In this document: one piece after another, positions 13,258 to 30,617 of the stretch
How positions within the stretch are numbered: the stretch's first letter is position 1
How the letters are laid out: the number at the start of each line of letters is the position of its first letter
From: Ndongobacter massiliensis
Lineage (GTDB): Bacteria; Bacillota; Clostridia; Tissierellales; Peptoniphilaceae
Reading direction: 5' to 3'
DNA length: 64,000 bases
Assembly (NCBI RefSeq): GCF_900120375.1
Contig: NZ_LT635480.1
Location: 186,001-250,000, forward strand
Program-made: the position numbers and the translations under genes
The notes under the pieces: generated by a model
The model's input: the letters and a program-made list of their open reading frames with translations, nothing else
Databases searched by the model: none
Told to the model about the DNA's origin: nothing

Positions 13258-14445
13258 ATGAGACATTTATTTACATCGGAATCGGTTACGGAAGGACATC
13301 CGGATAAACTGTGCGATCAGGTGTCCGATGCAATTTTGGATGCGTTACTGGAACAGGAGCGCGAGGCGCGCGTGGCTTGTGAATGCTTTACGACAACCGG
13401 CGCCGTGTTCGTCATGGGCGAAATTTCGGCAAAGGATGCCTATGTTGACATTCCGAGCATTGTGCGCAAGACGGTATGCGAGATCGGTTACGACAATCCC
13501 GCATCGGGGTTTGATGGACATACCTGTGCGGTGTTGACGGCCATCAACGAACAATCGCCGGATATTGCGCAGGGGGTTAACGCGGCGCTGGAAGCGCGCG
13601 AAGGGGACACAGATCCGTACGATCGGATCGGCGCAGGCGATCAGGGCATGGTGTTTGGCTACGCCTGTGACGAGACGGAAAGCTTTATGCCGCTTCCGAT
13701 TTCATTGGCGCACGCCTTGGCGCAGCGGTTGGCGCTCGTGCGCAAGGAAGGGCGCGTCGCTCACTTGCGTCCGGACGGGAAAACGCAGGTGACAGTCGAA
13801 TACGAAGACCAAAAACCAGTGCGCGTCGATACTGTTTTAATTTCGACCCAGCATGATCCACAGGCGAAGATCGCGGAACTGCGCAAGGCGCTCTGGGAAG
13901 AGGTCGTCTGTCCGGTAATAGATGCCTCTTTGCTGGACGAAAAAACGAAATTTCTGGTGAATCCGACCGGTCGCTTTGAAATCGGCGGGCCGCAGGCAGA
14001 TACCGGTTTGACCGGGCGAAAAATAGTCGTCGATTCCTACGGCGGTTTCGGTCGCGTCGGTGGGGGTGCATTCTCCGGCAAAGACCCCACAAAAGTGGAT
14101 CGCTCCGCCAGCTACTATGCGCGCTACATTGCGAAAAACCTGGTTGCTGCGGGCGCAGCGAGTCACGTGGAAGTCGGCGTCGCCTATGCCATCGGCGTGG
14201 CAAAGCCCTTATCCCTTTATGTGGACAGCTTTGGAACCGGCTGTGTTTCCGATGAACGCCTGCGGGCCATTGTGGAAAGCTGTTTCGATTTGCGCCCGGC
14301 AGCGATCATTGACGCATTACAGCTGCGCCGCCCCATTTATCGCAAAACGGCAGCCTATGGGCACTTTGGCAGAGAAGATGCGGACTTCACATGGGAACGC
14401 ATCGATCGCGTTGCGGAGATCCGCGCGTGTTTGACGAAAGCATAG
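13258..14445 (+). CDS. metK: S-adenosylmethionine synthetase
   Basis: MetK makes SAM from methionine and ATP in the cytoplasm. Conserved blocks are [13 protein letters not shown] (catalytic His and metal Asp), the GAGDQG active-site loop, and [16 protein letters not shown]. The length from the chosen ATG is 395 residues, normal for the family; the frame extends upstream, but the ATG behind GGAGAAGGGAG gives the conserved N-terminus M-R-H-L-F-T-S-E. It lies 74 nt after ispF and 8 nt before arcA, so it probably belongs to the same transcript. Confidence 0.97.
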
Positions 14446-14453
14446 GAGGCAGT

Positions 14454-15683
14454 ATGTCGGTCATTCAGGTCACCAACGAGATTGGAACGCTGCGGGAAGT
14501 GTTGATTCATTGCCCCGGCGATGAGTTGCTCCAGCTGGTTCCCCAAAATTTAACGGAACTTCTGTTTGATGACATTCCCTACCTGCGACAGGCGCGTCGG
14601 GAACACGAGGCATTTTGCAAAATTTTCACCGACCATCAGGTGCGCGTCGTTGCACTGCGCGACTTGGTGGCGGAGACAATGGAGGCGCATCCGGAGCTGG
14701 TCGAGCCGTTTCTCGAGCGCTTCATCCGCGAGGGCGATGTTCGCCTTCCTGCATATCGGCAGGCATTGCTAGCCTATTTCGAGCAATTTACAGACCGTCG
14801 TGCCTTAGTCGATGCGACGATGCGCGGGGTGACGCTCTCCGAGATCGATGGTGGACGTCAGCCGACGAATCTCTTTGAGTACCTAGGCGGGCCTTCGATC
14901 TTTCTCCTCGACCCGATTCCGAACCTCTATTTTACGCGCGATATGCTTTCCACCATGGGCAGTGGCGTTGTCATTCCGCGGATGTTTTCGAAAACGCGCA
15001 GCCGTGAGACGATCTATACGGATTTCTTCCTACAGCACCACCCAAAATATGAAGGAAAAGTCCCGGTCTACTACCGGCGCGACAGCGAATTCAATATTGA
15101 AGGCGGGGACATTCTTAACCTTCGGGCAGATTTGATCGCCGTAGGGCTCTCGCAGCGCACGTCGCCCGAAGCCGTAGAGCAGTTGGCACAAACGCTCTTT
15201 TTCGAGTCGGATTCCGCGGTGCGGAAAGTGCTTGCCATTCAGATTCCCAATACGCGCGCCTATATGCACTTGGATACCGTCTTTACGCAAATTGATCGCG
15301 ATGCGTTTACCTACCATCCGGGGATCATGCAGTCGCTGCGTTTCTTTGAATTGACGCCGAACCATGGAACCATTGCCATTCGCGAGCGCGAGGGTCGTCT
15401 GGAGGATCTGCTTGCCGAAGCGCTGGAATTGGATGCGGTGCGCCTGTTCCCCTGTGCCGGTGGCGATTGGATTGCCGCCGAGCGCGAGCAGTGGAACGAT
15501 GGTTCAAATACCTTGGCAATTGCACCGGGCGTTATTTTGACCTATGATCGCAATGAAATGACCAATGCTTTGTTGCGCGAGGCGGGCTTTACCGTTCTGG
15601 AAATGCCGAGTTATGAATTGTCAAAAGGTCGGGGCGGTCCACGCTGTATGTCGATGCCGCTGTGGCGTGAAAATTTAGAGTAA
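14454..15683 (+). CDS. arcA: Arginine deiminase
   Basis: ArcA hydrolyses arginine to citrulline and ammonia, the first step of the arginine dihydrolase pathway. The FTRD motif is at residues 160-163. Also present are the IEGGD block, the MHLDTVFT block with the catalytic histidine, and the nucleophile C398 in GGPRCMSMP. The length is 409 residues, as expected. The start is the ATG behind AGGAGG. No arcB (ornithine carbamoyltransferase), arcC (carbamate kinase) or arcD is visible in the window, so the rest of the pathway must be elsewhere if it exists. The gene sits 8 nt after metK. Confidence 0.96.
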   Translation: MSVIQVTNEIGTLREVLIHCPGDELLQLVPQNLTELLFDDIPYLRQARREHEAFCKIFTDHQVRVVALRDLVAETMEAHPELVEPFLERFIREGDVRLPAYRQALLAYFEQFTDRRALVDATMRGVTLSEIDGGRQPTNLFEYLGGPSIFLLDPIPNLYFTRDMLSTMGSGVVIPRMFSKTRSRETIYTDFFLQHHPKYEGKVPVYYRRDSEFNIEGGDILNLRADLIAVGLSQRTSPEAVEQLAQTLFFESDSAVRKVLAIQIPNTRAYMHLDTVFTQIDRDAFTYHPGIMQSLRFFELTPNHGTIAIREREGRLEDLLAEALELDAVRLFPCAGGDWIAAEREQWNDGSNTLAIAPGVILTYDRNEMTNALLREAGFTVLEMPSYELSKGRGGPRCMSMPLWRENLE

Positions 15684-28652: not shown

Positions 28653-30617
28653 ATGGACGGATTTTTACGTGTGGCAGCGGCGACGCCGCGAGTGCAACTG
28701 GCGGATCCGCAGGAAAATGCCAAACGTATCGAAAAAATGATTTGGGAAGCCGGGGCGGCGGGCGCTTCCATTCTTGTCTTTCCCGCGTTGAGTTTATGTG
28801 GGGCGAGTCTGGGAAACCTTTACAGCCAAACCCTGCTTTTGCAACGTTGTGAAGAAGAATTGGCCAACTTGATCGATCGTACGGAGAGCTTGGATATTTT
28901 ATGCGTCGTCGGGCTGCCTTTGCGGCGCGCCGGGCGTATTTACAACGGATTGGCGGTATTTCAGAGCGGACAATTATTGGCCCTGTACGGACATGGCGCG
29001 AATGTGGCACTTCCGTCCGCCTTTGGCGCAACGGGCAGCCCACTGGGCGGAATGGGCGGAGGGCTCACTGCCGAGACGGGCGTTTTTGCCCCGGCGCCGT
29101 ATCGTCCACAGCTCATTTCTTATGCGGGATTTGATGAGGTGCCTTTTGGGCAGCATCTGCTTTTCACTTCGGAGGAAGCGCCTTCGCTGCGTATGGCACT
29201 ATGTTTTGGCGATGAACGTCTTTCTCCGGCGTTTCTTCCGCCGAAATCGGCGACGTTGCTTTTGTGTGCGGCGGCCTATTCGGATGGCTTGCGTATGAGG
29301 GAACGGCGCAACGCCCGATTGATTTCGCAGACGATGGGGGAGGCGGGCCTGGTGTTGGCGGGTGCCGGCGCGGGCGAAGCCGGCGCTGGATGCCTGTATT
29401 CGGGAGAACGGTTGCTGGTGGAGGACGGAATGCTGCTGGAGAAAAGCGCGTTGCACAGCGCGGAGGGGATGTGCTGTGCGGATTTCGATCTGGAGCGCCT
29501 CGGACCGGCCCGCGCAGCGGGCGGGTCCGAGGGGGACGCGGTGGAGCCCCGGGAGGTTTCCTTCGCATTGCCGCTTGCTTTTCCACAGGTTGATTTTCTG
29601 CGACCGGTGGAGCGTCAGCCATTTCTGCCGCAGGGACCGGAGGCGGAGACGGCTTATGAACAACTGTTCACTTTGTTGGGGCGCGGTCTTGCCCAGCGGG
29701 TGACGCATATCGGCGCAAAAAAAATATTTTTAGGGCTCTCCGGCGGGTTGGATTCGACATTGGCCCTGCTGCTTGCCGTCCGCGCCGCGGAAATGGGGGC
29801 ACTTGCAAAAAAAGATATTGTTGCAATTTCGATGCCGGCCTTCGGGACGAGTCGCCGCACGGCGGACAATGCAGAAAAATTGGCAGGAGTTCTTGGCGTT
29901 TCTTTTCGCACAATTCCGCTTGCCGATGTTTTACGGCAGCATTTTCGCGATATCGGTTTGCCGGAGGGCGAACGCAGCACGGCGTATGAAAATGCACAGG
30001 CGCGCGAACGCACGCAGGTGCTGATGGACAGCGCAAACCGCGAGCAGGGGGTGGTGGTCGGAACCGGTGATTTAAGCGAGGCGGCGCTGGGCTGGTCCAC
30101 TTATAATGGGGATCATATGTCGATGTACCACATCAATGCGTCGATTCCGAAAACATTGGTGCGCGCGCTGGTGTATTACGCAGGGGCGCGCCGGGGTTCG
30201 GAAGCGCTGCGCCCAATATTGGAAGAAATTCTCGCCACGCCGGTTTCCCCGGAGCTCCTTCCACCCACTGAGGGCGCGCAGGAAACGGAATCCATCATCG
30301 GTCCCTATGAGCTGCACGATTTCTATCTTTACTATACGCTGCGCTGGGCAACGGCGCCATCAAAACTGTTGCGCTATGCAAGCAAGGCATTTGCCGACAC
30401 CTATGATCGCAAAACGCTGTTGCATTGGATGGATGTGTTTTATCAACGCTTTTTTGCGGCGCAGTTCAAACGCAATGCGATGCCGGATGGACCGACGATT
30501 GGCGCGTGGTCACTTTCCGCGCGGGGTGGATGGCAAATGCCGTCGGATGCGCATGCCACCCTTTGGCGCCGGGAAGTGGAGAGCCTTCGCGAAGCGCAGG
30601 ACGATGTGTTAAAATGA
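28653..30617 (+). CDS. nadE: NAD+ synthetase with a degenerate N-terminal glutaminase (nitrilase-fold) domain
   Basis: The 654-residue protein has the architecture of glutamine-dependent NAD synthetase. The C-terminal domain is intact, with the PP-loop SGGLDS (363-368), GTGDLSEAALGWSTYNGD and the family ending, so it should amidate NaAD to NAD. The N-terminal nitrilase domain (1-290) aligns with family members but has lost key residues. The usual FPEL-x-x-TG reads FPALSLCG (Ala45 for the catalytic Glu), and the catalytic Lys region (normally PKT-x-x-PNY) has no lysine. A cysteine (C184) remains where the nucleophile should be. It therefore probably uses free ammonia. The start is the ATG behind GGGAGG, with a TATAAT at 28598-28603. 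tmk follows. Confidence 0.88.
   Translation: MDGFLRVAAATPRVQLADPQENAKRIEKMIWEAGAAGASILVFPALSLCGASLGNLYSQTLLLQRCEEELANLIDRTESLDILCVVGLPLRRAGRIYNGLAVFQSGQLLALYGHGANVALPSAFGATGSPLGGMGGGLTAETGVFAPAPYRPQLISYAGFDEVPFGQHLLFTSEEAPSLRMALCFGDERLSPAFLPPKSATLLLCAAAYSDGLRMRERRNARLISQTMGEAGLVLAGAGAGEAGAGCLYSGERLLVEDGMLLEKSALHSAEGMCCADFDLERLGPARAAGGSEGDAVEPREVSFALPLAFPQVDFLRPVERQPFLPQGPEAETAYEQLFTLLGRGLAQRVTHIGAKKIFLGLSGGLDSTLALLLAVRAAEMGALAKKDIVAISMPAFGTSRRTADNAEKLAGVLGVSFRTIPLADVLRQHFRDIGLPEGERSTAYENAQARERTQVLMDSANREQGVVVGTGDLSEAALGWSTYNGDHMSMYHINASIPKTLVRALVYYAGARRGSEALRPILEEILATPVSPELLPPTEGAQETESIIGPYELHDFYLYYTLRWATAPSKLLRYASKAFADTYDRKTLLHWMDVFYQRFFAAQFKRNAMPDGPTIGAWSLSARGGWQMPSDAHATLWRREVESLREAQDDVLK

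Follow-up and report, generated by a model that had tools for sequence, protein, structure and literature searches.

A two-domain NAD synthetase of Ndongobacter massiliensis without a glutaminase triad, predicted to depend on free ammonia

How does a fused NAD synthetase obtain ammonia when its glutaminase half appears to be dead? This question is raised by nadE of Ndongobacter massiliensis, which is located in the window, that is, the whole stretch of 64,000 nucleotides of contig NZ_LT635480.1 analysed here. NAD synthetases have been sorted into fused or otherwise two-component glutamine users and single-domain ammonia users, and in the portion of PMC3376133 available the classification contains no fused NadE with a dead glutaminase. 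For the glutamine-dependent enzymes, the available portions of PMC3376133 and PMC6946656 describe a committed glutaminase whose ammonia is channelled onward. A search of the open-access literature, with most subscription papers outside its scope, listed no paper describing a naturally occurring NadE whose glutaminase is dead. The sequence-only reading of this locus proposed an enzyme that uses free ammonia and keeps the inactive domain for structural reasons.

The gene (Table 1) begins with ATG directly downstream of a GGAGG-like stretch, and all of its 654 codons are open; the interval 28653-29523 of the sequence-only reading covers the N-terminal nitrilase-like domain only and not the whole nadE. 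The protein passes the cut-offs of the NCBIfam model NF002730, NAD(+) synthase (570.1 bits, cut-off 473), and of the synthetase-domain model TIGR00552 (80.6 bits, cut-off 63.65), and it falls below both short-form equivalogs, NF010587 and NF001979. With 654 amino acids and an N-terminal nitrilase fold it is not a short NadE with a single synthetase domain, and its top solved relatives in phmmer are the Mycobacterium tuberculosis NadE entries (E 1e-91). By type, the window NadE belongs to the two-domain NAD synthetases represented by M. tuberculosis NadE (tbNadE). It has no close relative and is placed on a long tree branch (0.85). It shares with tbNadE (3DLA, 6OFC; NF002730 / PRK02628) the architecture, the predicted fold, the synthetase motifs and the ammonia-site Asp, but has lost the C-E-K triad, the YRE loop, Lys644 and Asp656.

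The available portion of PMC6946656 gives Cys176, Glu52 and Lys121 as the glutaminase residues of tbNadE and further names another glutamate, Glu132, and the YRE loop (127-132). Alignment with this glutamine-dependent enzyme of known structure shows that all three triad residues are absent from the window NadE. The sequence-only reading had noticed alanine in place of the catalytic Glu and a catalytic-Lys segment without lysine. Both observations hold, and there is no lysine at all from residue 29 to residue 197 (the lysines among the first 340 residues are 24, 28, 198 and 264), but the picture was understated, because the nucleophile is also gone, and the missing nucleophile is a stronger fact than the losses of Glu and Lys. 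The YRE region has become a glycine-rich stretch in which residues 117-141 are modelled at pLDDT <50, and Glu141, which aligns with Glu132(TB), is the only one of these active-site or YRE positions with a counterpart. Neither the C-E-K triad nor the YRE loop with tunnel Lys644, the marks of a glutamine-dependent NadE, is thus found in this enzyme, its pocket being judged from sequence alignment and pLDDT. That NF002730 accepts a protein without any glutaminase triad is a warning for annotation.

Table 1. Features of the window NadE (TB, numbering of tbNadE)
Feature	Position	Strand	Details or basis
nadE, two-domain NAD synthetase	28653..30617	+	654 aa; only nadE found in the genome
Pseudo-glutaminase, predicted nitrilase fold, about residues 1-299	28653..29549	+	PF00795, 35.7 bits over residues 6-116; AlphaFold2 model
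Ala45 (codon GCG) replacing catalytic Glu52(TB)	28785..28787	+	Alignment to tbNadE
Degenerate Lys121/YRE-loop segment, residues 110-141, glycine-rich, without lysine	28980..29075	+	Alignment; model pLDDT
Gly186 replacing nucleophile Cys176(TB)	29208..29210	+	phmmer and MAFFT alignments agree
Synthetase domain, conserved, from SGGLDS PPi loop (residues 363-368) to C terminus	29739..30614	+	PF02540, 100.5 bits; invariant columns
Conserved Asp487, matching Asp497(TB) at the last ammonia position	30111..30113	+	Alignment
Thr615 replacing tunnel-constriction Lys644(TB)	30495..30497	+	Alignment
Gly626 replacing Asp656(TB)	30528..30530	+	Alignment

The synthetase half is intact, as the sequence-only reading had stated. 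In a 26-sequence alignment that includes the window NadE, the SGGxDS loop and Asp487 are invariant; in the SGGLDS PPi loop five of the six positions are invariant and the Leu is nearly so. Asp497, the last ammonia position of tbNadE according to the available portion of PMC6946656, is conserved in the family clades of 32, 5 and 10 rows and in 28/28 intact rows. The PPi loop and the ammonia-site Asp of a tbNadE-type enzyme are both present in the window NadE. In addition, an AlphaFold2 monomer model (pLDDT 81, pTM 0.83), for which 58 aligned rows were the input, superposes on tbNadE with Z 43 and rmsd 2.4-2.6 (585-598 residues aligned, 32% identity), and about residues 1-300 of the model match stand-alone nitrilases (Z 26-29); both domains are thus predicted to keep their fold. 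The C176A structures of tbNadE match the model as well as the wild type does, which indicates that loss of the Cys alone leaves the fold undisturbed.

The one-contig genome (99.99% complete) was searched with PF02540 for a second NAD synthetase, a check that the sequence-only reading had called for. None was found; the three places matched are nadE, MnmA and GuaA, which gives no sign of a back-up NadE. GuaA retains the Cys and His-x-Glu motifs of its glutaminase (by eye), so that glutaminases have not been lost wholesale in this genome.

Since the triad is gone, the enzyme is the sole NadE found and the synthetase half is conserved, the dependence on free ammonia proposed earlier is supported as a prediction: the window NadE is very probably an ammonia-dependent enzyme with a retained structural pseudo-glutaminase. 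Its ancestor would have been a glutamine-using NadE of the octameric tbNadE type; on the tree, the nucleophile appears to have been lost in the ancestor of the two-domain NadEs of the family, and Glu and Lys later in much of the clade of the window NadE. Free NH3, probably abundant in the cell, would reach the synthetase site directly or via a loosened tunnel and would amidate the adenylated NaAD. The dead domain may have been kept since it is needed for the fold and probably also for the octamer and the synthetase site, as is suggested by the predicted fold, purifying selection in relatives and homology. tbNadE itself also takes free ammonia, according to the available portion of PMC6946656.

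The loss of the nucleophile is not confined to this gene. In a sample of 120 family genomes from 39 genera (the window's genus being represented by one genome), counted by eye from NadE-level PF02540 matches, 38 genomes of 10 genera have the two-domain NadE only, 76 have only the short NadE, which replaces it, none has both forms and six have neither. Three of the short forms (G016, G048, G091) read as two pieces. G107 (family f1, 99% complete) gives no NadE-level PF02540 match (best 3.5e-8) and so seems to lack an NAD synthetase. The Cys is absent in 49/49 two-domain NadE rows of the window's family, which correspond to 48 distinct proteins, 38 from the 120-genome sample and 10 from further family genomes; the check for a second NadE covered the 120 genomes. 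Depending on the alignment, the five rows of clade L014-L018 show Glu or Phe at the Cys position, and in no case Cys.

Of 34 rows from the order's other families, 29 carry E-K-C, four rows of one genus (g58) carry E-K-G and one is cut with Lys and Cys kept, so that the loss in the window NadE is more than chance. Among the best 80 named matches listed, which were ranked against a dead NadE as query, 69 carry E-K-C, two are partial and nine are without Cys (Gly in seven, Ser in two); these nine are from Lachnospiraceae, Oscillospiraceae, other Clostridia or Eubacteriales and Treponema socranskii ATCC 35536. A phylum sample of 299 genomes, for which the query was an intact NadE (E 1e-60) and the bias hence runs in the opposite direction, gave 27 two-domain NadEs besides that of the window, 25 of them E-K-C and two without Cys and Glu. 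Outside the family 15 losses were counted across several lineages, 11 of them from Cys to Gly. The partial rows L055, L089 and L122 were not counted as losses, and L160, with a cut start, lacks the Glu52 reading only.

In a 159-row tree of the synthetase domain one branch separates the family rows from the rest (support 98), and in a 186-row tree the family is set apart from two rows, L195 and L196 (support 89). On the latter tree, in which many branches are weak and the two long rows L195 and L196 join each other, a minimum of 11 state changes is required for the Cys. L035 (a cut copy of L169), L089, L122, L167 and L168 were dropped from the tree, and L168 had no open reading frame for the triad count. 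Several independent losses of the Cys are secure from these sequences, and 11 state changes are to be taken as an estimate. Each of the 15 Cys-lost genomes outside the family has one NadE-level match (88-114 bits), the dead enzyme, the remaining matches being at most 35 bits and several of the genomes being incomplete or of untold completeness; the dead enzyme therefore probably has to serve as NadE in them. The finding on a single odd gene extends to what looks like a recurrent evolutionary switch.

Changes at Lys644 and Asp656, the latter presumably a functionally important residue in tbNadE, tend to accompany the loss of the Cys. Lys644 is lost in 55/63 Cys-lost rows and in 2/122 readable others (kept in 120/122), and Asp656 is lost in 57/63 and in 3/122 (kept in 119/122). 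In tbNadE, Lys644 is described as the constriction-2A residue that bonds to Glu129 of the YRE loop (PMC6946656, available portion). Outside the family, 12/15 Cys-lost rows are without at least one of the two residues, whereas L104, L137 and L153 keep both. The independent pairs on well-supported branches are few (n=5), with 4:0 for Asp656 (median p 0.125) and about 2:0 for Lys644 (median p 0.5), so that the association, although it seems to be a tendency, is thin. Moreover, L193 and L194 have an intact Cys-Glu-Lys triad, yet Lys644 is changed to Gln and Asp656 to Gly in them, possibly an early stage or a different tunnel; L098, among the rows not scored as Cys-lost, is without Asp656.

Selection on the dead domain was estimated from relatives and not from the window NadE itself. 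In 14 overlapping close pairs of the family, which share species, the median dN/dS of the dead domain is 0.21 (0.11-0.45) against 0.075 for the synthetase domain; in intact pairs the values are 0.096 for the glutaminase (9/10 pairs with a value) and 0.048 for the synthetase. The dead domain in these relatives is relaxed about twofold yet still under purifying selection. Together with the predicted nitrilase fold, these values support the structural role that the sequence-only reading had suggested for the domain.

The largest clade of the family, the sister clade of 33 rows (32 usable), shows a different pattern. Its dead domain has a mean column conservation of 0.56, but the equivalents of Glu52, Lys121, Glu132 and Glu177 are kept in 32/32 rows and the position of Cys176 is Gly in 32/32. 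The 28 intact relatives share 70 invariant columns; in this clade the residue survives in 15 of these, all four pocket residues included (p 0.0015), where the four columns were chosen with prior knowledge and not blindly and the test ignores ancestry. Residues 127-130 of the YRE loop are deleted in the clade and positions 203 and 209 have drifted. It looks as though this pocket is kept for something besides glutamine hydrolysis. An unlikely alternative is that the dead pocket has been given a new job, intake of ammonium or sensing of a ligand, rather than that of a scaffold. The strict conservation just described would be its best evidence, although packing by salt bridges could explain the kept residues. 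Furthermore, in the 10-row clade of the window NadE the Glu is kept in 4/10 rows and the Lys in 1/10, with an adjacent Lys in three more, so the pocket there looks like plain decay, and the new-job reading would not hold for the window NadE. Doubtful, though put forward tentatively, is a wider proposal of a recurrent directed switch in which the tunnel gates Lys644 and Asp656 would change to mostly small residues and the Cys-less Glu-Lys-Glu-Gly-Glu pocket of the one clade would be strictly selected as an ammonium intake or sensing site and not be a relic.

It is very improbable that a separate glutaminase feeds ammonia to the synthetase in trans with the N-terminal domain as a docking site. 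The only other match to PF00795, the nitrilase superfamily, in the genome (L063, G000:C1:739277-740098) does have a complete Glu-Lys-Cys triad by eye, but its gene is about 0.5 Mb from nadE, with neighbours that look by eye like pnp and ribF, and the window NadE has lost both tunnel residues. Scarcely credible is a glutaminase that still works with shifted or substitute residues, such as Cys184 as the nucleophile. This Cys is located two residues upstream of the aligned nucleophile position, and the loop 117-141 is modelled at low confidence in a pocket judged from alignment and pLDDT; however, Cys184 is not a conserved residue of the 10-row clade, no Lys occurs in the stretch described above, Ala stands at the Glu position, and the positions of Tyr127, Ser203 and Arg209, the last two presumably glutamine contacts, are not kept. 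Equally hard to credit is a decaying gene or a sequence error, with NadE non-functional and NAD coming from elsewhere, for although the branch is long and the pocket strongly degenerate, the frame is fully open, the synthetase motif columns are invariant, no other NadE was found, and the 47 other distinct family rows, like T. socranskii ATCC 35536, have no nucleophile either.

An enzyme dependent on free ammonia, the preferred reading, was thought by the sequence-only reading to suit an ammonia-producing amino-acid fermenter, and this lifestyle is supported only indirectly. The genome gave no hit to PF00120 (glutamine synthetase) or PF00909 (Amt) in searches that each matched 14/14 control genomes. 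A scan covering 20 of the 51 predicted open reading frames of the window gave an ammonia-releasing arginine deiminase (14391-15680, + strand; PF02274, 374 bits) and an oligopeptide ABC transporter. This gene context fits an ammonia-producing cell and is no proof of one. The arginine deiminase gene adjoins that of an S-adenosylmethionine synthetase with all three domains. In this genome, without a PF00120 match, glutamine would have to come from import or another route of synthesis.

Loss of glutamine synthetase as the general driver of the switch is rejected, for 29/48 family genomes with a dead NadE (counted by eye) still have one. The enzyme is also found in 14/15 genomes with a dead NadE outside the family (4/4 in family f14, 10/11 others), in 30/30 genomes of the order whose NadE keeps the Cys (by eye) and in 14/14 other intact ones. 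Since all genomes with an intact Cys and many with a dead NadE have glutamine synthetase, the association is one-sided and is confounded by ancestry. Two weak family matches (L197, L198), the only two read, are type III glutamine synthetases by eye.

The window NadE is a variant of a known enzyme and not a new kind of system. Like the single-domain ammonia-dependent NadE of the E. coli type (PMC3376133, available portion) it is predicted to use ammonia, but the short form is without the N-terminal nitrilase domain that the window NadE has. The closest functional parallel is human carbamoyl phosphate synthetase 1 (CPS1). The glutaminase triad of CPS1 is of the Cys-His-Glu class, a different glutaminase type. 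According to the available portion of PMC4655335, CPS1 keeps a glutaminase-like domain without the catalytic Cys (Ser instead), takes external ammonia as its donor and has an altered ancestral tunnel; unlike the window NadE, it is not an NAD synthetase, is a vertebrate enzyme and is activated by NAG. A glutaminase half apparently switched off more than once, in an enzyme kept as the only NadE found, would be a bacterial counterpart of CPS1, and the related anaerobes with the same loss are implied to make NAD from free ammonia with the dead domain kept. Such proteins are natural mutants in which the non-catalytic role of the glutaminase domain and the route of entry of free ammonia can be asked about. 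In addition, the open frames of two rows are long against the usual 650 amino acids, 886 in L049 and about 870-912 in L114, possibly by an N-terminal extension or a late start.
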